DNA of 64,000 nucleotides from Halohasta litorea (GTDB lineage: Archaea; Halobacteriota; Halobacteria; Halobacteriales; Haloferacaceae): the NCBI RefSeq assembly GCF_024494645.1, contig NZ_JANHDJ010000001.1:620001-684000 (forward strand), given 5' to 3'. The position numbers and the translations under genes were made by a program. The notes beneath the pieces are model-generated. The model ran no database searches and was not told the origin of the DNA. It saw only the letters and a list, made by a program, of their open reading frames with translations. Below, piece by piece: positions 23,235 to 48,708 of this stretch (position 1 is the stretch's first letter; every line of letters begins with the position of its first letter).

Positions 23235-24611
23235 ATGACCGACAATACAGACCATCCGAATTATCCGAGTGTCGACCAGTCGGATCGGACGGTTCCGCGG
23301 AACCTCCGTCAGACCGGCGACCCCGGCATCGAAATGTTAGTCTCCACGCGCGTTCGCAAATCCCCGTTTTTCCACAAGTCGTTCGACGAGGAGGGCGCGT
23401 GGCGCGCCACCGTCTACAACCGACTCTACCACCCCCGTGGCCTCATCGAACCCGAGGACGGCGGCGTGATGAAGGAGTACGATGCGCTGACCAACGACGT
23501 CACGCTCTGGGACGTGGCCGTCGAGCGCCAGATCCGCGTGAAGGGCCCTGACGCGGAGGCGCTGACCAACTACGTCGTCACACGTGACGTCACCGGCATG
23601 GACGCGATGGATGGCAAGTACGTCATCCTCTGCAACGAGGACGGCGGCGTCCTGAACGATCCGGTCCTCCTCCGACCCGCCGAAGACGAGTTCTGGTTCT
23701 CGATTTCGGATTCGACGCTCATGCAGTGGCTGCAGGGCGTCAACGTCGACAACGAGTTCGACGTCGAGATCGACGAGATCGACGTCGCGCCGATGCAGAT
23801 CCAGGGCCCGAAGGCACTGGACGTGATGGTCGACGTCGTCGGCGAGAAAGTCAAAGACATCCCCTACTACGGTCTCATGGAGGCCGAGATTGACGGCTGT
23901 GATGTGCTGATCAGCCAGACCGGCTTTTCGGGCGAGGAAGGCTTCGAGATCTACGTCAAAGACGCCTCGAAGAACGCAGAACGGGTCTGGGACCCCGTTA
24001 TGGAGACGGTCAAAGCCCACGGCGGGCGGCAGATCGCGCCAGGGCACCACCGACGCATCGCCGCCGGAATCATGTCGTGGGGCCAGGATCTCGATCACGA
24101 GACGTCGCCGTTCCAGGTCAATCTCGGCTACCACGTCCCCGACGATAAGGACGCCGACTATATCGGAAAAGAGGCACTGGAGGAACAGAAAGCACAGATC
24201 GAAAACGGCGAGTATCCGTTCACCCACAAACTCATCGGGCTCAAACTCGCTGGCGAGCCGATCCGCGATTACGCCCCCGACTTCTGGCTCGTCTCCGACC
24301 CCGAGACGGGCCAAGAGTGTGGCTACATCACGTCGCCGTGGTGGAACCCCGACCTCGAAACCAACATCGCGATGGGCTTCGTCCCGGCCGAAAAAATCCA
24401 AGAAGTCACCGACACCCCGCTCAACGACGACATCTACGACGAAGACCTCGACCTGGAGTTCCAAGTCCACCTGCCCGACGAGTACTCCGAGGAACCCGGT
24501 GAGCCGACGTTCGCGACGTTCGCAAAGGTGCCGTTCAAGGAGTCAGTCAACCCGAGCGCCCGCGAGCAGGCCAAACTCAACGCCAGACAGGAAGTCGAAC
24601 AAAACGACTGA
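23235..24611 (+). CDS. DmdA-like (GcvT-fold) folate-dependent demethylase
   Basis: A 458-residue protein of the aminomethyltransferase superfamily. It resembles dimethylsulfoniopropionate demethylase DmdA more than glycine-cleavage T protein: it carries RKSPFFHKSF and ATVYNRLYHPRGL at the N-terminus, then DVTLWDVAVERQIRVKGPDA, NDPVLLRPAEDEFWFSISDS, PMQIQGPKA, and SGEEGFEIYV, followed by RIAAGIMSWGQDLDHETSPF. DmdA transfers a methyl group from DMSP to THF, giving 5-methyl-THF. The protein is about 90 residues longer than bacterial DmdA, with an N-terminal extension and an acidic C-terminal segment. Adjacent metF, dimethylglycine-dehydrogenase-like genes and a BCCT transporter also allow glycine betaine as substrate. 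The assignment to the GcvT fold is firm, the substrate is not. Confidence 0.8.
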   Translation: MTDNTDHPNYPSVDQSDRTVPRNLRQTGDPGIEMLVSTRVRKSPFFHKSFDEEGAWRATVYNRLYHPRGLIEPEDGGVMKEYDALTNDVTLWDVAVERQIRVKGPDAEALTNYVVTRDVTGMDAMDGKYVILCNEDGGVLNDPVLLRPAEDEFWFSISDSTLMQWLQGVNVDNEFDVEIDEIDVAPMQIQGPKALDVMVDVVGEKVKDIPYYGLMEAEIDGCDVLISQTGFSGEEGFEIYVKDASKNAERVWDPVMETVKAHGGRQIAPGHHRRIAAGIMSWGQDLDHETSPFQVNLGYHVPDDKDADYIGKEALEEQKAQIENGEYPFTHKLIGLKLAGEPIRDYAPDFWLVSDPETGQECGYITSPWWNPDLETNIAMGFVPAEKIQEVTDTPLNDDIYDEDLDLEFQVHLPDEYSEEPGEPTFATFAKVPFKESVNPSAREQAKLNARQEVEQND

Positions 24612-24790: not shown

Positions 24791-25651
24791 CTACGAGTCG
24801 AGCCGGGAGCGACGCCACGCTTCGGTATCCGGTGTCTGGTTGAACGTGTAGATGTGGACGCCACGAATGTCGTACTCCTCGTCGTCCACGTAGGGCGCGA
24901 GCCCATCGATGAGATCGTCCGGTTTATAGGTGCCCCGAGAGCCGACGAGCTGCCGGACGAACCCGAGGATACCGGTCGTCTTCCGCAGGAATTCGATCGA
25001 GTCGCCGACGCCGACCTTCTGTGAGATCTGGAGGAGTCGCTGATACTTCATCACGCCCGGAATGCCGACCTCGACCGGCAGGTCGACGCCGCGGGCGCGG
25101 ATCGTCTCGATCCAGTCGAGGACGGTCTCGGGGTCGTAACAGAGCTGGGTAACGATGTAGGTCGCGTAGGGTTCTTTTCGTGCCATCGACTCCGACAGCG
25201 TCCCGTCCGAAATGAAATCGTGCCCCTCGGGGTAGCCCGTAATACCGACTTCGTCGAACGAGTACGGCATCTCTTCGAGCGCAGAAAGCAGTTCGTAGGC
25301 CGACTCGAACGAGCCCGCGGGCTCCTCGCGGTCCCCGCCCGGAACGAAGATATCAGTGACGCCCGCGTCGGTCAGTCGTTGGGCGATCGATTCGAGGTGG
25401 TCTGTGCCTTCGACGTAGCGTGCGGCGATGTGGGGAACCACGTCATAGCCCTGCTCGGCCGCCTGTTCGGTGCGTTCGACCGTCCGCTCGATCCCGAGTT
25501 GTGGCGAGGTCGTAATGGCGATCGTCGCGTCATCGGGAAGATGCTGGATCTCGTCGTCGAAGCTATCGAACGGCATGAGCTCGAACCGGGCGTTTTGTAG
25601 CAAGGCTTCGACGCCATCCTGCTGTGTCGTGGTCGTAGTTCCCAATGACAT
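24791..25651 (-). CDS. metF: Methylenetetrahydrofolate reductase (MetF family)
   Basis: A 286-residue TIM-barrel flavoenzyme family protein interconverting 5,10-methylene-THF and 5-methyl-THF. Family marks are ATIAITTSPQLGIERT, VPHIAARYVEGTDHLESI, TDIFVPGGDREEPAG (the PGGD-type turn), GITGYPEGH, and QLCYDPETVLDWIETIRARG with PVEVGIPGVM. The EG in GYPEGH and the Gln/Asp residues around QLCYDP match MetF substrate positions. In this context it would oxidise 5-methyl-THF from the demethylase. It converges on the demethylase and lies downstream of a regulator gene with a nearly identical promoter. Confidence 0.88.
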   Translation of the reverse strand: MSLGTTTTTQQDGVEALLQNARFELMPFDSFDDEIQHLPDDATIAITTSPQLGIERTVERTEQAAEQGYDVVPHIAARYVEGTDHLESIAQRLTDAGVTDIFVPGGDREEPAGSFESAYELLSALEEMPYSFDEVGITGYPEGHDFISDGTLSESMARKEPYATYIVTQLCYDPETVLDWIETIRARGVDLPVEVGIPGVMKYQRLLQISQKVGVGDSIEFLRKTTGILGFVRQLVGSRGTYKPDDLIDGLAPYVDDEEYDIRGVHIYTFNQTPDTEAWRRSRLDS

Positions 25652-25729: not shown

Positions 25730-26827
25730 CTATGCGCCACTCGGATTACACTGCTGGATGCGTCCGGCGATCTGATCGTACGACACTGACCGCTCGGGGT
25801 CACCGGAAACAGTCCGCGAGACGAGATCCAGCAGATCGAGCTTCTGTAGGATTGTTCGAGTTTGGGTACGATCCAGTTGGAGCTGCCGTTGTACCTCGTA
25901 GACAGTCATCGAATCCACGACGGCATCGGCGATATCCTCAATCTCTACCGACTCGGGAAGCCCAAGTCCGTCAGTGACGAGCGTTTCGTCCTGAATCCGG
26001 TCCATCGGATCGTCGCTCGGCGTGGGTGACTGGGTCGTCGACGGGTCGACCGTCGTCTCGACGGATTCAGCGGTCTCATTGTCGCTGTCGGCCGTGTTGT
26101 ACGAATTGGGTGTGTGAATGTTCGCGTCGATCATATACCGTCGGACTGTCTCCGAAGAGACGTCCATCTCGATTCGTCGACTCATTTCAGTGAAGTTGTC
26201 GCACACCTCGTAGAGCTGTTGCAGGTACGCTGTATCCTCGTACGGTGGAAGAGAATCGTCACGGACGGCCGAGGGGTCAGGTTCCACTTCCGTGTTGTCT
26301 TCCGAGTGACCGGAGGGGACTGCGTCGACGTCACTTGCCGTTGTGTCGGGAGTTCCAGCGGATTGGCCGTGTTCAAGGAGTTTGATGTGTGTTTCGGTCG
26401 ATTCGCTTTGTGTGTCTGTTTCGGTCGGACCGGTTTCGTTCGTATCGTCGGCTCCCACTGCTGACTGACCGGACTCTTTCGAGGGATCGATACGCAGTTC
26501 GAGGACCGACAACAGTCCGTCGTCGGTGATCTGGACGGCTTCGTCGTTCACCGTCACAGCGGTCGCCTCCGAGGGAAGCCCCATGAGATCGGAGTTCGAA
26601 AACTCGACTTGGATCGTCCCGTTTTCGGTTACCGTCGCATCTGCAGGAGTGATCTGTTGAGAGAGACCGTCTCCCGATGCGGCACAGAAAGAGGCGAGGA
26701 GTTCTATGGTGACTTCGAGCATTTCGTTGTCTCCGGCCGTTGCTTCGATGTGTTGGATCGATCGACCGTTCGATTCGTACTGCTCGATGATCCGAGAGAG
26801 GGCATCGAACGATGCGGAGGGTCCCAT
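25730..26827 (-). CDS. Putative HTH transcription regulator of the one-carbon cluster
   Basis: A 365-residue soluble acidic protein. The N-terminal about 110 residues form a beta-rich domain. A Ser/Thr/Asp-rich disordered linker runs from about 110 to 190. An HTH-like segment follows at about 195-240: YLQQLYEVCDNFTEMSRRI with VSSETVRRYMIDANIHTP. A second HTH-like stretch, EDIADAVVDSMTVYEVQRQLQ with TQTRTILQKLDLLDLV, lies near 310-345. I do not recognise a named family. Its position between metF and the first dehydrogenase, and the promoter motif it shares with metF, make control of these genes the simplest inference. The ligand is unknown. Confidence 0.65.
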   Translation of the reverse strand: MGPSASFDALSRIIEQYESNGRSIQHIEATAGDNEMLEVTIELLASFCAASGDGLSQQITPADATVTENGTIQVEFSNSDLMGLPSEATAVTVNDEAVQITDDGLLSVLELRIDPSKESGQSAVGADDTNETGPTETDTQSESTETHIKLLEHGQSAGTPDTTASDVDAVPSGHSEDNTEVEPDPSAVRDDSLPPYEDTAYLQQLYEVCDNFTEMSRRIEMDVSSETVRRYMIDANIHTPNSYNTADSDNETAESVETTVDPSTTQSPTPSDDPMDRIQDETLVTDGLGLPESVEIEDIADAVVDSMTVYEVQRQLQLDRTQTRTILQKLDLLDLVSRTVSGDPERSVSYDQIAGRIQQCNPSGA

Positions 26828-27075: not shown

Positions 27076-29649
27076 ATGGAGACAACCGACAGCCTTCCGA
27101 CCCACGCCGACACCGTCATCGTTGGTGCCGGAATCGTCGGCTGCAATATCGCCTATCAACTAACAGCACTTGGTCGCGAGGACGTCGTCGTCGTCGACCA
27201 GGGACCGATGCCGACGACCGGCGGCTCCTCGACGCACGCGCCGGGGATCATGTTCCAAACGGCCGAACCCAAGGTCCTCGGCAAGTTCGCCGACTATAGC
27301 CGCCAGCTGTACAGCGATCTCGAAGGGGCCGACGGACAGCAGGCCTACAACGAGGTCGGCGGCATCGAAGTCGCCCGCAGCGACGAGCGGATGGACTTCC
27401 TCCAGCGCCGCGTCGAGTACGCCAAGGCGTGGGGGATCGACGACCCCCAACTGCTCTCGCCCGAGGAGGTCACCGAACTGCTCCCGCTCGTCGACGAAAG
27501 CGAGATTCTCGGCGGCTACTACTCGCCGACTGACGGACAGGTGTCGGGCGTCGTCGCTTGCGATGCGCTGGCCCGCGAGGCGATGGATCAGGGTGCACAG
27601 TTCGTCCCCCACACCCGCACCGAAGACGTCGACGTCGAAGACGGCGCTGTCCAATCGGTCGTCACCGAACGCGGGACGATCGACTGCGAGGAGGTCGTCG
27701 TCGCCACGAACATCTGGGCGCGGCAACTCGGCGAGAAACTGGGCGTTCACCTTCCGGTGACGCCGGTCGAACACCAGTACACGATGACCGAATCACTCGA
27801 CGAGATGGCCGAGGGGGCCGTCGACGTGACGAGTCATCCCCTGTTCGAGAACTACGAAAACGTCTCCGGCGAGAAGGCGACCCGGCTGCTGGTCGGCCCC
27901 GACCGCCCGATCCTGCGCGATCAGGACAACGCGATGTACTACCGGACCCACGGCGACTCCTACGGCATCGGCTCGTACAACCACGAGCCGATCGTGCCCG
28001 ACCCCATGGAGCTGGGTGGCAACGATCCCGACGGCGAGCAGGGGTCGGTCCACGAGTTCACCGACCACCACATGGACACCGCGACCCACCCGGACCGACC
28101 GGACAAAGCGCCGCGACAGGCCAGCGACGAACTCATCCCGGCGACTGAGGGAGCGGACCTCGAACACAAGTACAACGGGATGTTCGCCGAATCGCCCAAC
28201 GGCCTCCCCGTGATGGGGCCTGTCCAGGAGTACGACGGTCTCTGGACGGCGGCGGCCATCTGGGTCACCCACGCCGGCGGAGCCGGCAAAGCCCTCGCTG
28301 AGTGGATGGAACACGGGGTTCCGCGGCTCCCTGATGGGCCGATCGATCTGGCGGGCTGTGACGTCAACCGGTTCGACGACCACGAGGGCAGCTGGAGCTT
28401 CGCCCGCGACATCGGCGCCGAGGAGTACCGCATCGTCTACAACATCACCCACCCCAAATGGGTGTGGACCGAAACTCAGCGGGACATCCGGCGGACGCCG
28501 ATGTACCACACGCACAAGGAGTACGACGCCGAGCTGTGGGCCGAAGCCGGTTGGGAGGAACCGCAGTGGTTCGAGTCGAACGCGGACTTAGTGGCCGAGT
28601 ACGGTGACCGAATCGTCGACCGCGAGGGCTGGGAGGGTCGATACTGGTCGCCGATCGAGGGCGCGGAGGCGCTCAACGTCCGTGAGAACGTCGGCCTTCA
28701 CGACATGACGTCGTTCAACAAGATGGAGGTGATCGGAGACGAGGCCAGCGAGTTCGTCCAGTACCTCTGTACGAACGACATGGACATCGACGTCGGCGAC
28801 GTCAAATACACGCTGATGTGCAACGAAGGCGGCGGTGTTCGCGCGGACATAACCGTCACGCGGACCGACGAGGACCGCTATCTCTTGTTAACGACCGGAC
28901 GCGAAGTCGGCAACAACCACGTCGCGTGGGTCCGCGAACAGTCACCGGCCGAGGTCGTCGTCAACGACGTCACCTCCAGCTACGCAGCGATGGTCTGTAC
29001 CGGCCCCAACGCTCGGGCCGTCCTGTCGAAACTCACCGACGTCGACCTCTCGGACGAGGCGTTCCCCTTTTTCACGAGCCAAGAGTTTTTCGTCGACAAC
29101 ATCCCGGTGCGGGCGCTGCGCGTCTCGTACGCCGGTGAACTGGGGTGGGAGCTCTACACCCCCTCGGAGTACGGCGAACGGCTCTGGGAACACCTCCTGG
29201 ACGCCGGCGAGGAGTACCGAATTCGACCCTACGGCAACGGCGCACTGGATTCGTTGCGCATCGAGAAGGGGTTCCGTCTCTGGGGTGAGGACCTCCATAC
29301 CGAGCACAACCCCTACGAGGCAGGCCTCGGCTGGGCCGTCGACCTCGAGACGGAGTTCATCGGCAAGGACGCTGTTGCCGCGGCCGCGGCGGGCGATAAC
29401 ATCGATCACAAGGTCGCCTGCCTCACGCTCGACGATCCGGAGGCGGTCGTATTGCCCGACAAACCGGTGCTCGACGGCGAGGAGACCATCGGCTACCTTC
29501 ACAGCGCCGAGTACGGCTACACCGTCGGGGCCTGCGTCGCCTACACCTACCTGCCGCCGGAGTATGCCGAACCCGGAACCGAGGTCGAGATTCTGTACGA
29601 GGGCAATCGGTACGCGGTGACCGTGCGCGAGGAACCGCTGGTATCGTAG
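27076..29649 (+). CDS. Dimethylglycine/sarcosine dehydrogenase-like FAD enzyme, paralogue 1
   Basis: An 857-residue two-module flavoenzyme. Residues 1-430 form a DAO-type FAD oxidoreductase with GAGIVGCNIAYQL (17-29) and SSTHAPGIMFQT, in which H54 aligns with the covalent flavin histidine of DMGDH. From about 430 come the FAO_M and GcvT-type folate domains, with NVGLHDMTSFNKMEV, CNEGGGVRADITV and RVSYAGELGWELY. The last 90 residues form the GcvT C-terminal barrel. Known relatives oxidatively demethylate dimethylglycine or sarcosine and capture the methyl as 5,10-methylene-THF. ATG 27076 follows an AT-rich stretch (CTATTTTTG) suited to a promoter. Confidence 0.85.
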   Translation: METTDSLPTHADTVIVGAGIVGCNIAYQLTALGREDVVVVDQGPMPTTGGSSTHAPGIMFQTAEPKVLGKFADYSRQLYSDLEGADGQQAYNEVGGIEVARSDERMDFLQRRVEYAKAWGIDDPQLLSPEEVTELLPLVDESEILGGYYSPTDGQVSGVVACDALAREAMDQGAQFVPHTRTEDVDVEDGAVQSVVTERGTIDCEEVVVATNIWARQLGEKLGVHLPVTPVEHQYTMTESLDEMAEGAVDVTSHPLFENYENVSGEKATRLLVGPDRPILRDQDNAMYYRTHGDSYGIGSYNHEPIVPDPMELGGNDPDGEQGSVHEFTDHHMDTATHPDRPDKAPRQASDELIPATEGADLEHKYNGMFAESPNGLPVMGPVQEYDGLWTAAAIWVTHAGGAGKALAEWMEHGVPRLPDGPIDLAGCDVNRFDDHEGSWSFARDIGAEEYRIVYNITHPKWVWTETQRDIRRTPMYHTHKEYDAELWAEAGWEEPQWFESNADLVAEYGDRIVDREGWEGRYWSPIEGAEALNVRENVGLHDMTSFNKMEVIGDEASEFVQYLCTNDMDIDVGDVKYTLMCNEGGGVRADITVTRTDEDRYLLLTTGREVGNNHVAWVREQSPAEVVVNDVTSSYAAMVCTGPNARAVLSKLTDVDLSDEAFPFFTSQEFFVDNIPVRALRVSYAGELGWELYTPSEYGERLWEHLLDAGEEYRIRPYGNGALDSLRIEKGFRLWGEDLHTEHNPYEAGLGWAVDLETEFIGKDAVAAAAAGDNIDHKVACLTLDDPEAVVLPDKPVLDGEETIGYLHSAEYGYTVGACVAYTYLPPEYAEPGTEVEILYEGNRYAVTVREEPLVS

Positions 29650-29858: not shown

Positions 29859-29889
29859 ATCATGACAGATGCAGTCGGCAATGATACCA

Positions 29890-32442
29890 ATGAGCGAAGA
29901 GACCCTCCCATCACATGCGGATACGGTCATTATCGGAGCCGGCGCTGTCGGTAGTAGTGTCGCCTATCACCTCTCGGAACTCGGGGCGACGGACGTAGTC
30001 GTCTTGGACCAGGGCCCGCTGCCGGTGACCGGCGGTTCGTCGGTCCACGCCCCCGGCATCATGTTCCAAACCTCGCCGTCGAAGATTCAGACGAAGACGG
30101 CCCACTATACGAGTCGACTGCTCTCGGAGGCTGGCGTCTACGATGAGGTCGGCGGCATCGAGGTCGCCCGGAGCGACGAACGGATGGACTTCCTCCAGCG
30201 CCGCCTCGAGTGGGCAACTGCCTACGGATTACCCGAACCACAACTGCTCTCGCCGGAGGAGGTCACCGACCACCTCCCGCTTGTCGACGAAAGCGAAATC
30301 CTCGGCGGCTACTACTCGCCGACCGACGGCCGCGTCGACGGGATCGCCGCCCTCCAGTGGTATAGAGAGAACTCTTCGGCCGACTTCTTCGGCAACGTCG
30401 AAGTGACCGACCTCGACGTGACGGGTGGCGAGATCAACGGCGTCGACACCGATCAAGGCCGGATCGACTGTGAGCGCTGTGTGCTCGCGACGAACAACTG
30501 GGGGTATCAGACCGGCCAACTCGCTGGCCTCGACCTCCCGATCGCACCCGTCGAACACCAGTACGTCGTCACCGAACCGCTGTCGGAACTCGGCGGCGTC
30601 GAAACCGTAGTCGGCGACAACACGACCGGACTCGACGTGCCGGGCGACCGATCGATCGCCGAGTACATGAGCGAAGGTCCGCACCGACCGGTCGGCCGCG
30701 ATCAGGATCACTCGCTGTACTTCCGAACCCACGGCGACGCGCTGGGGATGGGCTCGTACAACCACGAGACGCTCTCGGTCGACCCGTCGGCGATGGGCAA
30801 AAACTCCGCGGAGCAGCAGGCATCGGTCCGCGGCTTTACCGAGGAACACTGGGAGCAGCCGACCCACCCCAATCGAGAAAAATCCGCCAAGCAGGCGTTC
30901 GACGAGCTGCTTCCGGCCACCGTCGACGCGGAGTACGCGGTCACCGAAAACGGGATCTTCGTCTTCACGCCCGACGGGATGCCCGCCGTCGGCGAAACCG
31001 CACAGGTCGACGGCCTGTGGACGGGACTGGCGATCTGGTGGACCCACTCGGGCGGCTACGGCCGGATTCTCGCCGAGTGGATGGAAACCGGCGTCCCGCG
31101 GCTCCCCTCCGGTCCCGTCGACACCGGCGGCATCCACGTTCGGCGGTTCGAACCCCACGCCGGCGAGAAAGACTACTTCGTCGACCGCGGCGCGAAACGG
31201 TACGAACAGGTCTACAGCATCGTCGAACCGCGCTGGCAACCCGAGGATCACCGCGGTCTTCGGCGGAGTCCGTTCTACCAGCAGCAACAGGCGCTGGGCG
31301 CGGAGTTCTACCAGAGCGGCGGCTGGGAATCACCCCAGTGGTACGCGTCCAACGCGGACCTCGTCGACCGATACGACGAGCGCATTCCGGAGCAAGACGG
31401 CTGGCAGGGAATCAACCGCTCGAAGATCGAGGCGGCCGAACACATCCACACCCGTCAGGCGGTGTCGATGTTCGATATGACCTCGTTTAGCTCGATCATG
31501 GTCGAAGGCGAGGACAGCGGCGCGTTCCTCCAGCGGGTCTGCAGCAACGATATGGACCTCGACATCGGGCAGGTTCGGTACTCGCTGCTGTTGAACGAGG
31601 GCGGCGGCATCCTCGCGGACATTACCGTCGTTCGACTCGACGACGAGCGGTACATGGTGACGACCGGCGGCGGCAACTCGCCGGGCATCCACGGCGGATG
31701 GCTTGCCGAGCGCGCTCCCGAGACGGTGTCGGTCCACATCGAAGAGGGCGCGAAGTCGACGATCGGCCTCTGGGGGCCGAAGTCGCGGCTCCTGCTGCAG
31801 CGGTGTACCGACGCCGACGTCACGAACAGCGGCTTCCCGTACTTCCGAGCCAAGGAGATCTACGTCGGCGACGTGCCCGTCATCGCGCTGCGGGTCTCCT
31901 ACGTCGGGGAACTCGGCTGGGAGCTGTGGACGCCGAGCGAGTACGGCGGGCGGCTCTGGGAGACGTTGTGGGAGGCCGGAGATGATCTGGACGTCAGACC
32001 GATGGGCGGCGGCGCACTGAGTTCGATGCGACTGGAGAAGGGGTTCCGGCTGTGGGGGACTGATATCGACACCGACGCCAATCCCTTCGAGGCGGGATTG
32101 CCCTTCGCCGTCGACATGGAGACGGAGTTTATCGGGAAATCGGCGCTCGAAGCGGCCACCGAGGAAGGGATCGACAATCGGATCACGCCGCTGACGCTGG
32201 ATGACTCGACGGATATCATGCTGAGCGGCCGCCCGGTCCTGAAAGACGACGAGCCGATCGGTTATGTGCAAGCGGGCGACTACGGCTACAGCATCGGCGA
32301 GTCGATCACCTACACGTACGTTCCCGACGAATACGCCTCGGCAGGTACATCGGTCCAAATCCTGTGTGAGGGAACCGTCTACGATGCGACGGTGCGCGAC
32401 GAACCGCTGTTCGACGCCGGACGAGAGAAACTACTCAGGTGA
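29890..32442 (+). CDS. Dimethylglycine/sarcosine dehydrogenase-like FAD enzyme, paralogue 2
   Basis: An 850-residue paralogue of the preceding enzyme with the same order: FAD-binding GAGAVGSSVAYHL (17-29), SSVHAPGIMFQT (candidate covalent-FAD H53), FAO_M, GcvT (MFDMTSFSSIMVEGED, LNEGGGILADITVV, RVSYVGELGWELW) and GcvT C-terminal domain. The start at MSEETLPSHADT is chosen by alignment with paralogue 1 (METTDSLPTHADT) and by the TATA box. The strongest divergence is in residues 130-330, where substrate contacts are expected, so one paralogue may act on dimethylglycine and the other on sarcosine. That split is inference. Confidence 0.85.
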   Translation: MSEETLPSHADTVIIGAGAVGSSVAYHLSELGATDVVVLDQGPLPVTGGSSVHAPGIMFQTSPSKIQTKTAHYTSRLLSEAGVYDEVGGIEVARSDERMDFLQRRLEWATAYGLPEPQLLSPEEVTDHLPLVDESEILGGYYSPTDGRVDGIAALQWYRENSSADFFGNVEVTDLDVTGGEINGVDTDQGRIDCERCVLATNNWGYQTGQLAGLDLPIAPVEHQYVVTEPLSELGGVETVVGDNTTGLDVPGDRSIAEYMSEGPHRPVGRDQDHSLYFRTHGDALGMGSYNHETLSVDPSAMGKNSAEQQASVRGFTEEHWEQPTHPNREKSAKQAFDELLPATVDAEYAVTENGIFVFTPDGMPAVGETAQVDGLWTGLAIWWTHSGGYGRILAEWMETGVPRLPSGPVDTGGIHVRRFEPHAGEKDYFVDRGAKRYEQVYSIVEPRWQPEDHRGLRRSPFYQQQQALGAEFYQSGGWESPQWYASNADLVDRYDERIPEQDGWQGINRSKIEAAEHIHTRQAVSMFDMTSFSSIMVEGEDSGAFLQRVCSNDMDLDIGQVRYSLLLNEGGGILADITVVRLDDERYMVTTGGGNSPGIHGGWLAERAPETVSVHIEEGAKSTIGLWGPKSRLLLQRCTDADVTNSGFPYFRAKEIYVGDVPVIALRVSYVGELGWELWTPSEYGGRLWETLWEAGDDLDVRPMGGGALSSMRLEKGFRLWGTDIDTDANPFEAGLPFAVDMETEFIGKSALEAATEEGIDNRITPLTLDDSTDIMLSGRPVLKDDEPIGYVQAGDYGYSIGESITYTYVPDEYASAGTSVQILCEGTVYDATVRDEPLFDAGREKLLR

Positions 32443-32495
32443 GCAGTCGACGGTATCGCTCGTAAATCGCCCAGTTGCACCCTTCGACCCCAGCA

Positions 32496-33761
32496 ATGAA
32501 CTCAACCGAATCCGACGACCAAACTGAATCCGACGACCCCCCGGTTACGTACGCCGATATCGAACGCGCTCGCAAGCGACTCGATGACGACACCGTCGTC
32601 AAGGAGACGCCGGTCGAACGAAGCTCGTCGCTCGACGAGTTCGTCGGCGGCACCGTCTATCTCAAGATGGAACACCTCCAATGGACCGGCTCGTTCAAAC
32701 CGCGCGGTGCGTACAACAAAATCACACAGGACGTCGATCGGGGCGTCGACTCCTTCGTCGCCGCCAGCGCGGGCAACCACGCCCAGGGAGTGGCGCTCGC
32801 AGCCGCCAACTGCGGGGCCGAGGCGACCATCTTCATGCCGAAGAACGCCCCGCAGGCGAAAGTCGATGCGACGAGAGGCTACGGTGGAAGTGTCGAACTC
32901 GTCGGCAAGGACTTCCAGGAGACGATGGCCCACGCCCAAGCGGCAGTCGAGGAAACGGACGCCGAGTTCGTCCACGCCTACGACGACCCAGACATCATCG
33001 CCGGGCAGGGAACCCTCGGCGCGGAGATGTATCACGACTGTCCCGACGTGGATACCGTCGTCGTCCCCATCGGCGGCGGCGGGCTCATCAGCGGCGTCTC
33101 GACGGCGATCAAACACCTCTCGCCGGAGACGCGCGTCGTGGGCGTCCAGGCGACCGGTGCCGAGACGGTCCACGAGAGCCTCGACAAGGGAATGCCGGTC
33201 GTCCTCGACGAGGTCGACACGATCGCCGACGGCATCGCGACCGGCGGCGTCTCCGAGCTGACTCTCGACATCATCGAGCGGAACGTAGACGAGATCGTGA
33301 CGGTCTCCGATACGGAGATCGCCCAAGCGATACTGCTCTTGATGGAGCGTGCGAAACAGGTCGTCGAAGGGGCTGCGGCGGCCTCGGCCGCAGCCGTACT
33401 GAGCGAGAGCCTCGATGTGACCGACGAGACGGTGATGCCGCTTCTCTGTGGCGGCAACCTCGATATGACACAACTCCGAACGGTCTTGATTCACGCGCTC
33501 ACCGAGCGTCGACAACTCATGCGGCTTCGCGTTCGGATCGACGACCGACCGGGAGTCCTAGAGGACATCTCCGGGACGATCGCTGACTACGGAGCGAACA
33601 TCCACGACGTTCGTCACGACCGTTCGGTCGACGATCTGGACGTCGGCGAAGCCTATCTCGTCCTCAATGTCGAAACCAGCGGCATCGAACACGCCAACGG
33701 CATCGTAGACGGGATCGAAGCGAGCGGCTATCCCGTCGAGGATATCGCGCGGACGAACTGA
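32496..33761 (+). CDS. Threonine/serine ammonia-lyase with C-terminal ACT domain
   Basis: A 421-residue PLP enzyme of fold type II. The PLP lysine is K68 in WTGSFKPRGAYNK. The substrate/PLP loop is ASAGNHAQGVA, the glycine-rich phosphate loop is PIGGGGLISG, and an ACT domain (about 340-421) begins RLRVRIDDRPGVLEDI. The length and single ACT domain are those of the catabolic-type IlvA/TdcB family. It deaminates threonine to 2-oxobutyrate or serine to pyruvate. Fifty-three nt after the dehydrogenase it is probably co-transcribed, so disposal of serine made from glycine plus methylene-THF is plausible. TTG 32475 in the same frame is a less likely start. Confidence 0.88.
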   Translation: MNSTESDDQTESDDPPVTYADIERARKRLDDDTVVKETPVERSSSLDEFVGGTVYLKMEHLQWTGSFKPRGAYNKITQDVDRGVDSFVAASAGNHAQGVALAAANCGAEATIFMPKNAPQAKVDATRGYGGSVELVGKDFQETMAHAQAAVEETDAEFVHAYDDPDIIAGQGTLGAEMYHDCPDVDTVVVPIGGGGLISGVSTAIKHLSPETRVVGVQATGAETVHESLDKGMPVVLDEVDTIADGIATGGVSELTLDIIERNVDEIVTVSDTEIAQAILLLMERAKQVVEGAAAASAAAVLSESLDVTDETVMPLLCGGNLDMTQLRTVLIHALTERRQLMRLRVRIDDRPGVLEDISGTIADYGANIHDVRHDRSVDDLDVGEAYLVLNVETSGIEHANGIVDGIEASGYPVEDIARTN

Positions 33762-33873: not shown

Positions 33874-34317
33874 ATGTACGAATCCATTTTGATCCCGTAC
33901 GATGGGAGCGACGAAGCGAATCGAGGGGCCACACACGGTATCGACCTCGCAGCCGAGCTCGGAGCCGCTGTACACGGGTTGTACGTGATGGACCTCCCCG
34001 GAGCGCCACGTGCACTCTCGCTTCGAGACGACGAAGAGGAGCTCCGCGAAGAGTACAGGGAGTACGGCGAGACCGTGATGGCCGAGCTCAGCGAGCTTGC
34101 CCACGAACGCGGTGTCGAGTGTTCGACGGCGATCAAAAGCGGCTCGGTGAGCGAAGCCATCGTCGACTATGCCCGAGACGAGGGGCTAGACGCGATCGTG
34201 ATGGCCTCGGCGTACCACGGGACTCTCGGGGCGTTGCTGGGCGGAACGACCGACAAAGTCGTTCGAACCGCCACAGTGCCGGTAATAACACAGCGAATGC
34301 GTGTCGACGAGGTCTAA
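33874..34317 (+). CDS. Universal stress protein (UspA family)
   Basis: A 147-residue single-domain Usp. It starts with the family strand MYESILIPYDGSDEANRGA. Later it carries LDAIVMASAYHGTLGALLGGTTDKVVRTATVPV, the nucleotide-binding loop region of the family. Haloarchaeal genomes often place Usp genes beside membrane transporters, and here a BCCT transporter lies about 700 nt downstream. Regulation of that transporter is possible but unproven. Confidence 0.88.
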   Translation: MYESILIPYDGSDEANRGATHGIDLAAELGAAVHGLYVMDLPGAPRALSLRDDEEELREEYREYGETVMAELSELAHERGVECSTAIKSGSVSEAIVDYARDEGLDAIVMASAYHGTLGALLGGTTDKVVRTATVPVITQRMRVDEV

Positions 34318-34961: not shown

Positions 34962-35030
34962 ATGACCCGGAAGATCCAGAGACGGTTGATACACGACGGG
35001 AGGGTATCGTATGTCAGACAGCGACAGTAA
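34962..35030 (+). CDS. Putative 22-codon upstream ORF overlapping the transporter start
   Basis: ATG 34962 reads MTRKIQRRLIHDGRVSYV, followed by four more residues and TAA at 35028-35030, overlapping the first 20 nt of the BCCT gene in another frame. It is strongly basic. It could act as a leader peptide that controls transporter translation, or be incidental. Confidence 0.3.
   Translation: MTRKIQRRLIHDGRVSYVRQRQ
34998..35004 (+). promoter_or_regulatory. Shine-Dalgarno site of the BCCT gene
   Basis: GGGAGGG lies 6 nt upstream of ATG 35011 and confirms a leadered transcript with this start codon. Confidence 0.65.
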
Positions 35031-36759
35031 AACCGGAGAGATTTCTGACGGACTTCAGGTGGAGCTGTTCCATCCGGACTCCGACAGGAAACCGGGAGAT
35101 ACCAACATCGAGGCGTTCGGGTTCGACATCCATCCGATCGTTTTCCCGGTCGCACTGGGTTTGGTCGCACTGTTCATCGCAACCACCATTCTGTTAGGCG
35201 ATCAGGCGGCCAACGCGTACTCGGCAGTCCGCAGCTTCTTCGAGGGGAACTTCGGCTGGTTCTATCTCCTCTCTGTGAACGTGTTCATCGTTACGATTCT
35301 GTACTTCGCACTCGGGAAGTACGGAACGATCAGGATCGGTGGTGTGGAAGCCGAAAAGGAGTTTAGCGACTTTTCGTGGATGGCCATGCTGTTCAGCGCT
35401 GGCATGGGGATCGGCCTCATGTTCTACAGCGTCTCGGAGCCGCTGTTTTACTTCGGCAGCGTCCCGGGCTTTTTCGGTGCCGAAGCCGGGACCGGTGCAG
35501 CGGCATCGGCAGCAATGGCTCAAACGTTCTTCCACTGGGGCTTTCACCCGTGGGCAATCTACGGGCTGGTCGGCCTCGGATTGGCGTTCTTTTCGTACAA
35601 CCGTGGGCTCCCGCTGACCTTCCGCTCGATCTTCTGGCCCCTCCTCGGTGACCGAATCTACGGCTGGCCCGGACACATCATCGACCTCGTGACGGTGTTT
35701 GCGACGCTATTCGGGCTGTCGACATCGCTCGGCCTCGGCGTCGCCCAGATCAACACCGGCCTCTCGTACGTCGGCGGCGATATGCTCGGCATCGTCAGTA
35801 TCCCAACAGGGACCGTGCCACAAATCCTCCTCATCGCGGTGATCACCGGCATTGCCACGATGTCGGTCGCCGCCGGCCTCAATAAAGGCGTCAAGCGACT
35901 CAGCACGCTGAACCTCTACCTAATGCTCGGGCTACTGGGTTTCATGCTCGTCGTCGGTCCGACGGTGTTCATCTTCGGAACGTGGGTCGAGGGGCTCGGT
36001 GCGTACTTCGGCAACCTGCTGTCGCTGTCGTTCTTCACCGGGACGCTCGGTGAAGGCGGCAGCACAGTCTCCGCATGGACCGTGTTCTACTGGGCGTGGT
36101 GGATCGCCTGGTCACCGTTCGTCGGCATGTTTATCGCACGCATTTCGAAAGGCCGAACCGTCCGAGAGTTCGTCATGGGCGTGCTGTTCCTGCCATCGCT
36201 GTTCTCGACACTCTGGCTGTCAGTGTTCGGCGGCAGCGCGCTGTTCAACTCGCTGCAAGGAAACGGTGCAGCCCTCGCAACGTACAACGAACTCGGTCAG
36301 ACTGTGGCGATGTTCGCGCTCCTCGAACAGTTCCCGCTCGGCGCGATTTCGGGACTCCTCGCGACGCTGCTCGTGGTGACGTTCTTCGTCACCTCCTCGG
36401 ACTCGGGGTCGCTGGTTATCGACCATCTGACCTCGGGCGGTAAACACGACGTTCCCAAAAATCAGCGAGTCTTCTGGGCGGTCACCGAGGGTGCGGTCGC
36501 CGCACTCTTGCTGTGGGGCGGCGGTCTCAACGCCCTCCAAACGGCCGCGATCGCGACCGGCTTCCCGTTCGCCATCGTCCTGATGTTGATGTGCGTTACC
36601 GTCTATCAAGGGTTGAAAAACGAGTACGAAATCCTAGAATCCGATCAGTTCGCAGAACGTATCCAAGATATGACCGAAGACGAAGATATCGAAGTGGTGC
36701 AGACCGGCGATCAGGTCGTCACGGACGTGAGAGGAGGTGATGTCGAGGGGACCGACTAA
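35011..36759 (+). CDS. BCCT family transporter (betaine/carnitine/choline type)
   Basis: A 582-residue LeuT-fold carrier with 12 membrane helices, an acidic N-terminal tail of about 40 residues and an acidic C-terminal tail after residue 525. The glycine-rich TM3 motif GMGIGLMFYSVSEP (131-144) and the BCCT Trp box FYWAWWIAWSPFVGMF (359-374), followed by ARISKGRTVREF, are diagnostic. GMGIG (rather than a variant with Asp) is the form associated with Na+-coupled betaine uptake in BetP-like carriers. Substrate identity remains inferred. Its position between the dehydrogenase genes and the folate genes suggests it supplies the methylated substrate rather than acting only in osmoprotection. Confidence 0.92.
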   Translation: MSDSDSKTGEISDGLQVELFHPDSDRKPGDTNIEAFGFDIHPIVFPVALGLVALFIATTILLGDQAANAYSAVRSFFEGNFGWFYLLSVNVFIVTILYFALGKYGTIRIGGVEAEKEFSDFSWMAMLFSAGMGIGLMFYSVSEPLFYFGSVPGFFGAEAGTGAAASAAMAQTFFHWGFHPWAIYGLVGLGLAFFSYNRGLPLTFRSIFWPLLGDRIYGWPGHIIDLVTVFATLFGLSTSLGLGVAQINTGLSYVGGDMLGIVSIPTGTVPQILLIAVITGIATMSVAAGLNKGVKRLSTLNLYLMLGLLGFMLVVGPTVFIFGTWVEGLGAYFGNLLSLSFFTGTLGEGGSTVSAWTVFYWAWWIAWSPFVGMFIARISKGRTVREFVMGVLFLPSLFSTLWLSVFGGSALFNSLQGNGAALATYNELGQTVAMFALLEQFPLGAISGLLATLLVVTFFVTSSDSGSLVIDHLTSGGKHDVPKNQRVFWAVTEGAVAALLLWGGGLNALQTAAIATGFPFAIVLMLMCVTVYQGLKNEYEILESDQFAERIQDMTEDEDIEVVQTGDQVVTDVRGGDVEGTD

Positions 36760-36851: not shown

Positions 36852-36929
36852 ATGGACCGTGCAACCGTGCGACGAGATCTATCGACCAGCCGTCGACCCC
36901 AGAATTCCGACAGGAGAACAGAACCGTGA
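36852..36929 (+). CDS. Putative 25-codon ORF coupled to fchA
   Basis: ATG 36852 starts a basic peptide beginning MDRATVRRDLSTSRRP and ending at TGA 36927-36929, whose stop overlaps the GTG start of the next gene (GTGA). Start-stop overlap suggests translational coupling. It would be nearly leaderless if the weak box TTTCTTTAC (36820-36828) is the promoter. Confidence 0.35.
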   Translation: MDRATVRRDLSTSRRPQNSDRRTEP

Positions 36930-37522
36930 CATTCGCCGAACAGCCGATCGGCCAGTTCGCCGCCGACGTCGCGTCGACGCGGGTGACACCGAGCGGAGGC
37001 GCAGTTGCTGCCGTCTCCGGGGCGATGGGTGCATCGCTCTGTGAGATGGTCTGTATCCACACCGCCAACAGCAACGCGGCTGGGTCGACCCTCTCGGATC
37101 TCGGTGAGGAGTTCGGGCGTCACCGCAGACGGTTACTGAGGCTTGCGGACGACGATGCCGCCGCGGTCGACTCCTTGCAAGCAGCGTTTAGAGAACACGA
37201 GTCGACATCGAATACCGTCCAGACGGCCGTGAAACGCGCAACAGACGTCCCACTGGAGATTGCGACGGTGTGTCTGGCCGTCATCGAGGCTGGAGTGGAC
37301 GTCGTCGAAAACGGCAATCCCAACGCCGTTGCCGACGCAGTCACCGGCATCGCGTTGGCTCACGCGGCGCACAGATCGGCCGTGTTCACCGTCCGCACCA
37401 ACCTTGAGTTACTAACGGATCCAGAAGTGGTCTCGAACCGCGACCGACAGGCGACCGAGCTCGCGCAGGCCGCCCAAGCGGCAATGGATCGCGTCGACGA
37501 GCGTGTAGATCACTCGCTGTGA
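36926..37522 (+). CDS. fchA: Cyclodeaminase/cyclohydrolase family protein (FchA-like)
   Basis: A 198-residue helical protein of the formiminotransferase-cyclodeaminase C-terminal family. TPSGGAVAAVSGAMGASLCEMVC (21-43) is the family signature. The helix bundle continues through DDAAAVDSLQAA and NPNAVADAVTGIALAHAAHRSA. Family members hydrolyse 5,10-methenyl-THF to 10-formyl-THF or act on 5-formimino-THF. With Fhs and FolD nearby, methenyl-THF cyclohydrolase is likely. It starts at GTG 36926, with CAGGAG at 36911-36916 as ribosome-binding site. It lies 166 nt after the BCCT gene. Confidence 0.85.
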   Translation: MTFAEQPIGQFAADVASTRVTPSGGAVAAVSGAMGASLCEMVCIHTANSNAAGSTLSDLGEEFGRHRRRLLRLADDDAAAVDSLQAAFREHESTSNTVQTAVKRATDVPLEIATVCLAVIEAGVDVVENGNPNAVADAVTGIALAHAAHRSAVFTVRTNLELLTDPEVVSNRDRQATELAQAAQAAMDRVDERVDHSL

Positions 37523-38218: not shown

Positions 38219-40648
38219 TCAGTCGGCATCAAGCAACGAAGCGACATCAGCAGCAGCAACTGCGTCATTCGCGGCCTCGACCGTCCGAACCACGGCGACG
38301 TTTTCGGCAACGTCATGCACCCGAACCAGATCTGCGCCACGCTCGGCAGCCATGACCGTCACCGCAAGCGTCGGCAGCAGGCGATCGCTGTCCTGGTGGC
38401 TAACAGCTTCGAACATCGATTTTCGGGAGTGGCCAACCATCACCGGACAGCCGAGTGCTCGGAGTTCGGCGAGTCGGTCGACCAGCGCGAACGACGCCGA
38501 GGCGTCCTTGCCGAATCCACAGCCCGGATCCACGATAACCTGTTGGCGGTCGATGCCGACCTGCTCGGCGCGGAGAAGCCGCTCGTTGAGATCCCGAAGA
38601 ACGGTTTCGACGCTGTCGTCACTCACAGTCTGTTCGGGATCAACTGGAGCCGACAGACTGTGCATGAGGATAACTGTCGCGTCGTGGTCGGCGATCACGA
38701 AGCGCATTTCGGGGTCGGAGAGCCCCGAGACGTCGTTGACGATATCGGCACCCGCTGCGAGCGCTGCATCCGCGACTGCCGCTTTCCGGGTATCGACCGA
38801 AATCGGGACCGGAAGCGAGGCGATCGACTCGATCACAGGGACGACGCGGTCGATTTCGGCGTCGACCGAGATGGGGTCAGCACCGGGACGTGTGCTTTCG
38901 CCGCCGACATCGATGACGTCGGCACCGGCCGCAACCATCTGCTCGGCCCGGTCGACCGCCGCATCGAGACGGGCGTACTCGCCGCCGTCGTAGAAGCTGT
39001 CGGGCGTGACGTTCAATATCCCCATCACCGCCGTCGAATCGGTGTCGAACGGTTCGGCCGGTAACGAACCATCGAGCCGGGTTCGAAGCTGTCGTGCAAA
39101 CGGTGCAAGGCCGAGGCCATCACGTTCGATAGCGTCGGCGAGTGCGTGAAGTTGGGCGTCGGTCCCCTGGAGAACGGTCGAGACGAGTTTCTTTGGCGCA
39201 CCAACATCTGATGTAACACAGTCGCCGCCGATGGATTCGAGCCGTTCTTCGACACAGGTGGCCTGTTCGGGGCGAAGCGTCGTCGAGAAACGTCGGTGGC
39301 CTACGGCGTCGACATCAGTCTCGGAAGCCACCGCGTCTTCGGTTGCGGTGATCGCCGGTGATTGGCAACGGGAGTCGGTCGGAACGAGCAACCGTGTCCA
39401 GCGGTCTCGTGCCTCGGCGACAGCGTACAGCGACCCGGTGACGAGGACAAAATCGTCCTCACCGGCCGCGTCGACGGCCCGTTCGGTGGCTTCGAGGACG
39501 GATTCGATGCGGTGGATCTCGTCGGCGTGGCCGTCGAAGACGTCGGCCAGTACGGATGGTTCGGCTGCGCGGTCGGTCACGGGGCGCGTGGTGTAGGCGG
39601 TGTCGACCGGCGGCAGCGCGCGAACCATCCGCTCGTGGTCCTTATCGCTCATCGCCGCGAAGACGACGTGCAACTCCTCGTACGCATAGCGATCGAGCAG
39701 GTCGGCGAGCGCAGTCATTGCGCCGGGGTTGTGCGAGCCGTCGAGGACGATCATTGGCTCGGTCGATCTGATCTCGAAGCGTCCTGGCCAGCTCGCAGCT
39801 CGAAGGCCGTCGGCGATCGTTCGGGAGTCGACGGTGGCAACTTGAGTCGCAAGCGTCGCTGCAATACCAGCGTTCGTCGCCTGGTGTTGGCCGAGCAGCG
39901 AGAGGTTGGTCTCGATGGCCCACTCAGCTCCCGTGATCGAGACGGTGTTTTCGACAGCCGAGTGCATACCGTTTTCCACAGCAGTAATATCCGAGTCCGC
40001 TGGACCGACCGTTATCACGTCTGTTTCGGTTCGAATGGCGTCGAGTGCGGCCCCCGTCGTCCCCGTGACGAGCGGCGCGTCAGTCGGGGCAACCTGGGCT
40101 TTGTCGCGGGCGATCTCCTCGATCGTCTCCCCGAGCAGTTCGGTATGTTCGAGACTGACGCTCGTGACTGCACTCGCAACGGGATCGACCGCACTCGTCG
40201 CGTCGTACCGGCCGCCAATGCCGACTTCGAGGATCGCGACGTCGACATCCTCGGCTCCAAAGTGGAACAGCGCGAGCGCGGTAAGGACCTCGAACTGCGT
40301 CGGCCGATCATCCGGAGAGAGTTCCTGCTCGATGAACGGCTTGATCCGCTCGACGAACTCGGTGACGCGGGCTTTCGGAATCCGTCGATCGTTGACGAGG
40401 ACCTGTTCGCGAAACGTATCGAGTGCTGGTGAGGTAAACAGGCCGACGTTCAATCCCTCGGTTCGAAGGACGCTGTCGAGCAGTCGCGCAGTGCTTCCCT
40501 TCCCGTTCGATCCGGCGATCTGGACGCAGTCGATGTCGTCCTGGGGGTCGCCGAGGAACGACAGCATCCGCGCGGTCGTCTCCGTACCCAACTTCGGTCG
40601 ACGCTGGTGTAACGAGTGGAGGTAGTCGGCCGAATCGTGGTATTCCAT
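38219..40648 (-). CDS. folCP: Fused folylpolyglutamate synthase / dihydropteroate synthase
   Basis: An 809-residue bifunctional folate enzyme. Residues 1-430 are FolC: P-loop AGSNGKGST (45-53), TSPALDTFREQ, EVGIGGRYDAT, LDGSHNPGA, with a later VTGSLYAVAEARDR. A linker follows to about 540, then FolP: MGILNVTPDSFYDGG, DVIDVGGESTRPGA, ISVDTRKAAVADAAL, NDVSGL, VDPGCGFGK, and VGHSRKSMFEA. The N-half attaches glutamates (or another amino acid) to folate, and the C-half joins pABA to the pterin. This fusion is known from haloarchaea such as Haloferax. It drives the downstream membrane-protein gene and supplies the cofactor used by the neighbouring one-carbon enzymes. Confidence 0.93.
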   Translation of the reverse strand: MEYHDSADYLHSLHQRRPKLGTETTARMLSFLGDPQDDIDCVQIAGSNGKGSTARLLDSVLRTEGLNVGLFTSPALDTFREQVLVNDRRIPKARVTEFVERIKPFIEQELSPDDRPTQFEVLTALALFHFGAEDVDVAILEVGIGGRYDATSAVDPVASAVTSVSLEHTELLGETIEEIARDKAQVAPTDAPLVTGTTGAALDAIRTETDVITVGPADSDITAVENGMHSAVENTVSITGAEWAIETNLSLLGQHQATNAGIAATLATQVATVDSRTIADGLRAASWPGRFEIRSTEPMIVLDGSHNPGAMTALADLLDRYAYEELHVVFAAMSDKDHERMVRALPPVDTAYTTRPVTDRAAEPSVLADVFDGHADEIHRIESVLEATERAVDAAGEDDFVLVTGSLYAVAEARDRWTRLLVPTDSRCQSPAITATEDAVASETDVDAVGHRRFSTTLRPEQATCVEERLESIGGDCVTSDVGAPKKLVSTVLQGTDAQLHALADAIERDGLGLAPFARQLRTRLDGSLPAEPFDTDSTAVMGILNVTPDSFYDGGEYARLDAAVDRAEQMVAAGADVIDVGGESTRPGADPISVDAEIDRVVPVIESIASLPVPISVDTRKAAVADAALAAGADIVNDVSGLSDPEMRFVIADHDATVILMHSLSAPVDPEQTVSDDSVETVLRDLNERLLRAEQVGIDRQQVIVDPGCGFGKDASASFALVDRLAELRALGCPVMVGHSRKSMFEAVSHQDSDRLLPTLAVTVMAAERGADLVRVHDVAENVAVVRTVEAANDAVAAADVASLLDAD

Positions 40649-44425: not shown

Positions 44426-44998
44426 TCAGCTGCGTGCGAAGGCGGTACAGAAGTTCTCGATCAGGTCCATTCCGGCGTCGGTGAGGATGCTTTCGGGGTG
44501 GAACTGGACGCCGAACTGCGGACGGTCGACGTGCCGAACCCCCATGACGACACCCTGATCGTCGTCGGTGTGTGCCGTCTCGACCAGCTCGGTCGGTAGC
44601 TCGTCGTCCCCAACAGCCAACGAGTGATACCGACCGACGGTCATCGGCTCGTCGAGACCGGCGTACAACCCTGCCCCATCATGACGAACAGCCGAGGGTT
44701 TCCCATGGACCACAGTCGGCGCGTGGTCGACCGAGGCACCGTAGGCCGCACACAGGGCTTGATGGCCCAGACAGACGCCGAGTGCGGGATAGGCCGTCTC
44801 GGCGAACACGTCGATAGAGACGCCTGCCTCTGCGGGCGTTCCCGGCCCCGGAGAGACGACGATCCCATCGGGGTCGAGTTCGTTGATTCCCTCGACATCG
44901 ATGGCGTCGTTTCGACAGACAGTGACCTCCTCAAAGGAGCCGACGTACTGGACGAGGTTGTAGGCGAACGAGTCGTAGTTGTCGATGATCAGGATCAT
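44426..44998 (-). CDS. Class I glutamine amidotransferase, PabA/TrpG type
   Basis: A 190-residue glutaminase subunit. The start [15 protein letters not shown], oxyanion motif [11 protein letters not shown], nucleophile C76 in GVCLGHQ and catalytic H167/E169 in FHPES are all present. It supplies ammonia to chorismate aminating enzymes. It overlaps the synthase gene by 4 nt, indicating coupled translation. A folate-cluster position favours PabA (4-aminobenzoate), though TrpG duty is also possible since many archaea share one subunit. Confidence 0.9.
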
Positions 44999-48054: not shown

Positions 48055-48708
48055 CTACGTCTCATCGTCGAACAACGTTGCCGAGATGAGGTTTCGCATC
48101 CCACGTCTGAGTCGACCGCTCATCGCGGTCGACGAGAGGCCGATTTCCGCGGCGGCTTCGTTCAGCGAGATATCACGCGGTTCGTTGAAATACCCGCCCT
48201 CGTAGACGGTTTTGAGGGCGATCCGTTGTTCCTCTGTGAGTCCGTACGATACTTCGTCACCGGTGCCGCTGTTTCCGTATATTTCGATGATATCCAGCGA
48301 GATGTCGTTCTCGGTGGCATACTCCCAGATCTCGTTGAGTGCGTTTCGATCCGGGAGCAGCAGGTGGACGAGCCATCCGCTCCGAACCGCTTCCGTATGG
48401 ACGAGAAACCCGTTCACGTCGGTGACGACGGTGCTGATCAGTTTCGTTTCAGGTGTGAATTCGATATAATAGATACCCGTGTGGTCGGTCCAATCGATGA
48501 GATCGTACGCCTCAACGGTCTGGTCGTCTGCAAGTGCTTGTTCGAGTTGCTCGCGGTCGTTGTACTCGATAAGGAATGGAAACACCGTCGCACCGGGAGC
48601 GGTGTTCCCGTGGGTAATCGCACGAATGTCGACGTCATCGAGGCGTTGGAGGGTTGGTGCGAGAGTGAGGCGGTCGTGGTCAATGTGTATTTTGGCTGTA
48701 ACGGACAT
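48055..48708 (-). CDS. Bat-type (HTH-10) transcription regulator
   Basis: A 217-residue regulator. The N-terminal domain of about 150 residues has the DICT/Bat-like beta pattern (AKIHIDHDRLTL, TKLISTVVTDVNGFLVHTEAVRSGWL). The C-terminal HTH-10 reads GLTEEQRIALKTVYEGGYFNEPRDISLNEAAAEIG, then LSSTAMSGRLRRGMRNLI. This family acts downstream of redox or light signals in haloarchaea. It has no receiver domain. It converges on the small membrane protein gene. Confidence 0.85.
   Translation of the reverse strand: MSVTAKIHIDHDRLTLAPTLQRLDDVDIRAITHGNTAPGATVFPFLIEYNDREQLEQALADDQTVEAYDLIDWTDHTGIYYIEFTPETKLISTVVTDVNGFLVHTEAVRSGWLVHLLLPDRNALNEIWEYATENDISLDIIEIYGNSGTGDEVSYGLTEEQRIALKTVYEGGYFNEPRDISLNEAAAEIGLSSTAMSGRLRRGMRNLISATLFDDET

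Follow-up and report, generated by a model that had tools for sequence, protein, structure and literature searches.

A DmdA-superfamily protein shared by haloarchaea and SAR11, encoded beside a short MetF, as a candidate glycine betaine:THF methyltransferase

The window analysed in this study, a 64,000-nucleotide stretch of the Halohasta litorea genome, encodes a protein of the DmdA superfamily, for which the name DmdAL was coined here. DmdAL is probably a THF-dependent demethylase that most likely takes a methyl group off glycine betaine and passes it to THF, with a dedicated short MetF oxidising the resulting methyl-THF. Transfer of a methyl group to THF is the well-supported part of this proposal. 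Glycine betaine as the donor is suggested by gene context and is favoured with moderate confidence, and the oxidising direction of MetF is what its genomic and structural associations suggest. The evidence obtained at the sequence level is the fold, the clade, the gene neighbourhood, the co-occurrence of genes across genomes and the lack of detectable members of other betaine-demethylating families in this genome.

The DmdAL gene is real. Its reading frame begins with ATG, encodes 458 amino acids and has a GC3 of 0.83, and the region holds no second long coding-like frame. Pfam detected GCV_T (147 bits) and a weak GCV_T_C in the protein; the N-terminal FAD oxidoreductase domain of the dimethylglycine dehydrogenase (DMGDH) type (DAO, FAO_M) was absent from these Pfam matches. 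Among the NCBIfam models the DmdA model NF009133 ranked first with 249.5 bits, which is below its cut-off of 410, and a SAR11 ortholog scored 237 bits against the same model. Two GcvT models gave 162 bits (cut-off 300) and 145 bits (cut-off 235.85), both also below threshold. The closest PDB sequence was Pelagibacter ubique DmdA (3tfh, E 2e-44), and the same structure was the top match of a fold search (E 9e-31) with an AlphaFold model (pLDDT 73, pTM 0.78) that had input relatives of only ~40% identity and that gives the fold while leaving residues 1-40 and part of the C-terminal tail unresolved. Judged from its sequence, DmdAL is a member of the DmdA superfamily in which the THF-binding fold and site are present. 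Since the DmdA model led the family scores and 3tfh led both the sequence and fold matches, the first-pass annotation of this DNA was right to read the motif order as DmdA-like rather than GcvT-like: WDVAVERQ, which conforms to the DmdA-type WDVAxERQ, stands in place of the GcvT motif FDVSHM, and the DmdA-type N-terminal block RxR-S/T-P...YN+ was also found.

The phylogeny that the first-pass annotation had proposed as a check was run as a maximum-likelihood tree of 69 rows. The DmdA-like rows split from GcvT, DMGDH and Tdm at 100/99, and DmdAL does not lie inside the GcvT clade. DmdAL forms a single clade (100/100) comprising haloarchaeal clade A, which includes the window protein, haloarchaeal clade B, and rows from roseobacters, Rhodospirillaceae and SAR11. 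The group sister to it (96/73) contains the DmdA clade (100/99) along with another large clade from marine bacteria. Because the outgroup has long branches, the clades are firmer than the exact placing of the root. Identity as GcvT was ruled out by the 100/99 split, the scores below the GcvT cut-offs and the lack of FDVSHM. Identity as DmdA was ruled out by the position outside the DmdA clade, the score below 410 and the replacement of DmdA-invariant residues, so the earlier description of a DmdA-like demethylase stands as regards the superfamily but does not make the protein a DmdA.

Other DmdA-like proteins were observed alongside this family. The haloarchaeal paralogs of clade B (L106, L107, L036-L051, L094) are 66-71% identical to DmdAL, and their loci, which often carry a Bat-type regulator and in some cases an MFS carrier, do not have MetF or DMGDH nearby. 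These paralogs probably act on a different methylated substrate, so the DmdAL family need not share a single one. A third marine DmdA-like clade (L096, L097, L100, L118, L139 and others), ~40% identical to DmdAL, is encoded in a conserved operon alongside an Lrp regulator, an OsmC-like protein, an enoyl-CoA hydratase and an acyl-CoA synthetase, which was read as an undescribed DMSP-like pathway. Some of its members, from Marinobacterium (L111-L113), Halomonas denitrificans (L149) and Lichenihabitans (L099), adjoin PurU and FolD, with MetF also present in L099 and L111, an arrangement that resembles a methyl-THF oxidation chain; Marinobacterium often has two copies of the third-clade gene. A Marivivens operon (L101, 6998-12157) contains DmdB-, DmdC- and DmdD-like genes with a DmdA-like protein just outside the DmdA clade. 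A DmdA-like gene at 2-1120 of L109, a 5.3-kb contig listed as viral, adjoins terminase- and portal-like genes, and this region may be a gene-transfer agent or prophage. A search of viral contigs for DmdAL relatives returned a single one, at 32% identity.

The active site of DmdAL differs from that of DmdA. In the alignment, the DmdA-invariant K199, Q200 and E238 have become G, E and R in 34/34 DmdAL sequences, and all 34 read F-S-G-E where DmdA reads W/Y-S-K-Q, while the folate-site Glu204 and Tyr206 are conserved throughout. PMC7487153 assigns roles to these residues; it treats the W as specific for DMSP and reports a subclade in which F takes its place. Roseobacter DmdA has Y at the W197 position, however, so the change of W197 to F was dropped as sole proof of an altered substrate and the argument rests on the whole residue set.

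Both ends of the protein are extended. The N-terminal extension recorded in the first-pass annotation covers approximately residues 1-38, and its signature is kept in archaea and bacteria alike. The acidic C-terminal segment noted there was also confirmed: residues 393-425 contain 39% D+E compared with 20% over the whole protein. The C-terminal loop and tail are family-wide (Y417, S437, R443 and E444 kept in 33-34 of 34 sequences), and the acidic form is the haloarchaeal version, the tail in SAR11 orthologs being present without the acidity. On the alignment, the N- and C-terminal extensions together are a family mark. A purely haloarchaeal acidic oddity was ruled out since the extensions also occur in SAR11 and roseobacter orthologs, and with orthologs at 54-65% identity in those bacteria the haloarchaeal setting is not the peculiarity it had been taken for.

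The most telling neighbour of DmdAL is the dedicated MetF, which the first-pass annotation had missed along with the rest of the folate island. In the window its gene follows DmdAL convergently. Among 392 Halobacteriales genomes, DmdAL was found in 97 (96 long matches and one fragment), short MetF in 100, spanning 37 genera, and both in 96 (Fisher p ~1e-85, a value that ignores the kinship of the genomes). In SAR11, MetF lies directly upstream of DmdAL on the same strand in 12/12 loci, with an 8-base overlap in 9; no MetF was present within the stretches examined around roseobacter DmdAL loci. DMGDH and GcvT yield methylene-THF and MetF would be required if the product were 5-methyl-THF, so the pairing makes 5-methyl-THF the most likely product of DmdAL. 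The GCV_T fold and the DMGDH neighbours would also suit a free-standing folate domain that takes up methylene groups from DMGDH/sarcosine oxidation or from the cleavage of glycine, with 5,10-methylene-THF as product. This is very unlikely, as the DMGDHs have GCV_T domains of their own, the genome encodes a separate GcvT-like protein, DmdAL is split from GcvT/DMGDH/Tdm and the strict MetF pairing implies a methyl-THF product.

The direction in which MetF works also has to be considered. MetF is usually biosynthetic, and it could supply 5-methyl-THF for DmdAL to methylate dimethylglycine, a thiol or a similar acceptor. This is extremely improbable here: about three quarters of the sampled Halobacteriales genomes, two congeners included, are without both genes, the make-up of the island (carrier, DMGDH, dehydratase) is catabolic, and the nearest MTHFR structure probably points the other way. 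The best PDB match of the window MetF was 7xg9 (E 1.3e-30; second best 8.7e-11), which we take to be the SYK-6 MTHFR. In SYK-6 the MTHFR works with the THF O-demethylase LigM and oxidises 5-methyl-THF (PMC12585457), and the closest structure is thus probably that of a methyl-THF oxidiser. Additionally, SAR11 is without MetE and MetH (PMC12478193), so MetF is not required there to supply a folate-dependent methionine synthase.

DmdAL and MetF open an island of ~25 kb, from 23.2 to 48.7 kb of the window, that contains a complete folate one-carbon set (Table 1), together with RidA and a few other interspersed genes, e.g. at 37564-38154 and 40744-41943. The DMGDH-like neighbours named in the first-pass annotation are both part of it. 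Clusters in relatives add GlyA and dihydrofolate reductase, and in Salinigranum marinum Fhs, FolP, FolD twice, PabAB, DmdAL, MetF and DMGDHs lie within 25 kb. The 43 clade-A loci contain MetF in 33, DMGDH in 23, BCCT in 16, FolD in 15 and GlyA in 12, and the corresponding counts in 17 clade-B loci are 0, 0, 1, 0 and 0. The conserved protein beside MetF is 30-49% identical across clade-A loci and is possibly a regulator. Aspartoacylase-like genes were seen in 11 and creatininase-family genes in 9 of the 43 clade-A clusters (L098 and others). At the island edge, a short coding-like fragment resembling an ABC permease (22789-22995) is probably a gene remnant. In the 12 SAR11 loci a GbcA-like Rieske protein occurs in 9, and BHMT-type, OpuAC and ProW-type genes in 3-4; DMGDH is also present in some.

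Table 1. Coordinates of DmdAL, its segments and the genes of the surrounding island in the window
Feature	Position	Strand	Evidence or occurrence
DmdAL, DmdA superfamily, proposed glycine betaine:THF methyltransferase	23235..24611	+	profiles, structure matches, tree
N-terminal extension with signature VDQSDRxVPxNLRQ(S/T)G	23235..23349	+	common to SAR11 and roseobacter orthologs
Active-site loop SQTGFSGEEGFEIY	23913..23954	+	DmdA W/Y197-S-K-Q changed to F-S-G-E; E and Y of the folate site unchanged
C-terminal loop, strongly acidic in haloarchaea	24411..24506	+	alignment
Short MetF/MTHFR-like protein, proposed 5-methyl-THF oxidising partner	24791..25651	-	profiles, structure match, co-occurrence
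Conserved protein, no Pfam match	25730..26827	-	in 21/43 clade-A loci
Dimethylglycine/sarcosine dehydrogenase-like (DAO + FAO_M + GCV_T + GCV_T_C)	27076..29649	+	profiles
Second dimethylglycine/sarcosine dehydrogenase-like	29869..32442 (probable start 29890)	+	profiles
Serine/threonine dehydratase (TIGR01127), proposed serine to pyruvate	32475..33761 (probable start 32496)	+	
UspA-like protein, conserved BCCT neighbour	33874..34317	+	
BCCT betaine transporter (PF02028, 602 bits)	35011..36759	+	
FchA-like methenyl-THF cyclohydrolase (FTCD_C)	36926..37522	+	
FolC-FolP fusion (FolCP; folylpolyglutamate synthase / dihydropteroate synthase)	38219..40648	-	
Formate-THF ligase Fhs	42104..43837	+	
PabA/TrpG glutamine amidotransferase (p-aminobenzoate synthesis)	44426..44998	-	
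PabB aminodeoxychorismate synthase I (TIGR01824, over cut-off)	44995..46500	-	
FolD methylene-THF dehydrogenase/cyclohydrolase (NF010764, over cut-off)	46773..47666	+	
Bat-type HTH_10 regulator	48055..48708	-	such a regulator in 32/43 clade-A loci

The island is accessory, given that DmdAL is absent from both congeners searched (G173, G275) and is carried on megaplasmids in Haloarcula. Orthologs were found in 144/247 Pelagibacteraceae genomes (54-59% identity) and in 7/248 genomes of the Roseovarius family (60-65% identity). The clear orthologs in Halobacteriales and Pelagibacteraceae are far too many to be a chance result. Some SAR11 copies, from draft single-cell or metagenome genomes, have in-frame stops that reflect either decay or sequencing error.

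Several observations bear on the substrate. A DMGDH1-like protein is encoded in 85 of the 97 DmdAL genomes, and a DMGDH-family protein was found in 11/11 tested of the remaining 12. Three solutions are known for converting glycine betaine to dimethylglycine, namely BHMT, GbcA and MttB/MtgB (PMC12478193). Family searches of the H. litorea genome detected no BHMT-type (PF02574), MttB (PF06253) or Rieske (PF00848) protein, and PF02574 was absent from 18 further DmdAL genomes as well, which leaves DmdAL as the remaining candidate for the step before DMGDH. A 2011 survey had reported that haloarchaeal dimethylglycine oxidases adjoin BCCT carriers and had raised the possibility that glycine betaine, dimethylglycine or sarcosine is used, though growth of Haloquadratum walsbyi was not improved by betaine despite a dimethylglycine-oxidase-like gene (PMC3102087). 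Glycine betaine had been among the possible substrates listed in the first-pass annotation, and it is retained as the best reading from context. BHMT and the GbcA-like Rieske protein near the SAR11 operon mean that other glycine betaine routes are possible in those bacteria.

DMSP must also be weighed, since no characterised family or structure is closer than DmdA. In that case DMSP, which BCCT carriers can import, would be demethylated to methylmercaptopropionate and 5-methyl-THF, and MetF would be equally useful. However, DmdAL lies outside the DmdA clade and has K199, Q200 and E238 replaced, SAR11 retains a separate true DmdA alongside it, and the neighbours are N-methylglycine enzymes. Furthermore, true dmdA loci carry dmdBCD-like genes, whereas neither the recurring neighbours of the 43 clade-A loci nor the genes of the island in the window include dmdB, dmdC or dmdD. 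DMSP is therefore an unlikely substrate. Possible, though doubtful, is a different quaternary or sulfonium solute, such as choline, carnitine, proline betaine, beta-alanine betaine, dimethylsulfonioacetate, TMAO or the like. The chemistry and the logic of MetF would be unchanged, several such solutes are carried by BCCT and OpuA-type transporters, several betaines are substrates of GbcA-like Rieske proteins, and clade B is sometimes paired with an MFS carrier instead. Two DMGDHs with GlyA and the serine/threonine dehydratase, however, best fit the glycine series.

With glycine betaine as the preferred substrate, the BCCT carrier would import it and DmdAL would move one methyl group onto THF at N5, with dimethylglycine and 5-methyl-THF as products. 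The short MetF would oxidise the latter to 5,10-methylene-THF, and the two DMGDH-like flavoenzymes would take dimethylglycine to sarcosine and then glycine, charging another THF at each step. FolD, the FchA-like cyclohydrolase and Fhs could convert the C1 units to formate with ATP, and glycine and methylene-THF could be joined to serine by GlyA, which is clustered in relatives, and the serine converted to pyruvate by the dehydratase. The chemistry of moving a methyl group off a quaternary ammonium is more demanding than that for the sulfonium of DMSP, and we know of no enzyme that passes such a group straight to THF with neither cobalamin nor a thiol. The same net reaction from glycine betaine to THF is carried out by the cobalamin-dependent MtgABC enzymes (PMC12478193).

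In brines and oceans alike, glycine betaine is a major osmolyte. If the proposal is true, the gene, found in most sampled SAR11 genomes, would be among the sea's most abundant betaine-degrading genes, DmdAL would be the missing first step of haloarchaeal betaine catabolism, and known chemistry would gain the direct passage of a methyl group from quaternary ammonium to folate. According to PMC12478193 (2025), the marine first step was, before the MtgBCD result of that study, known only as a predicted, unvalidated SAR11 BHMT, and PMC3102087 did not name a first-step enzyme for haloarchaea. One candidate gene can now be named for both groups and linked to SAR11_1265. Parts of this picture had been seen before: the family as 'non-DmdA' (PMC7487153), its very probable SAR11 member as an aminomethyltransferase beside metF (PMC3160333) and the dimethylglycine oxidases beside BCCT (PMC3102087). 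No paper that joins these observations or assigns a function to DmdAL was found in a search that left out preprints and most subscription papers. Whether DmdAL represents a cobalamin-free, thiol-free glycine betaine:THF methyltransferase common to haloarchaea and SAR11, and so a fourth biochemical route to dimethylglycine, is put here at about even chances.

Compared with DmdA (P. ubique 3tfh; NF009133), DmdAL has the same fold, THF site and WDVAxERQ and YN(H/R)M blocks, and methyl transfer to THF would be expected of it too. It differs in its separate clade, its lower model score, F-S-G-E in place of W/Y-S-K-Q, the extensions at both ends, the lack of dmdBCD and the linkage to MetF and DMGDH. 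The SAR11 MetF-DmdAL pair is very probably SAR11_1264-1265, going by the published description of SAR11_1265 as an aminomethyltransferase of unassigned substrate beside SAR11_1264 metF, for which a second DMSP demethylation was speculated (PMC3160333); no paper assigning a function to these tags was found in the literature searched. Those orthologs share the sequence and the upstream MetF with the haloarchaeal system, but their loci are without the folate-synthesis island. PMC7487153 describes non-DmdA homologs with a DmgdH-like subclade that carries F171 and includes AEM59334.1. This subclade, which has the same F replacement, probably contains the haloarchaeal DmdAL family; the paper reads it as DMGDH-like in structure and, in the passages available, does not connect it with MetF, folate genes or glycine betaine. 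LigM/DesA with S6MTHFR of Sphingobium SYK-6 (PMC12585457) combine a THF demethylase with a short 5-methyl-THF-oxidising MTHFR, as proposed here for DmdAL, but the LigM/DesA substrates are aryl methoxy compounds and LigM is only remotely similar to DmdAL (28.9 bits in the PDB sequence search). Finally, BHMT, GbcAB and MtgB-MtgC-MtgA (PMC12478193) convert glycine betaine to dimethylglycine, as DmdAL would, but they belong to protein families unrelated to DmdAL and their acceptors are homocysteine, oxygen or cobalamin.
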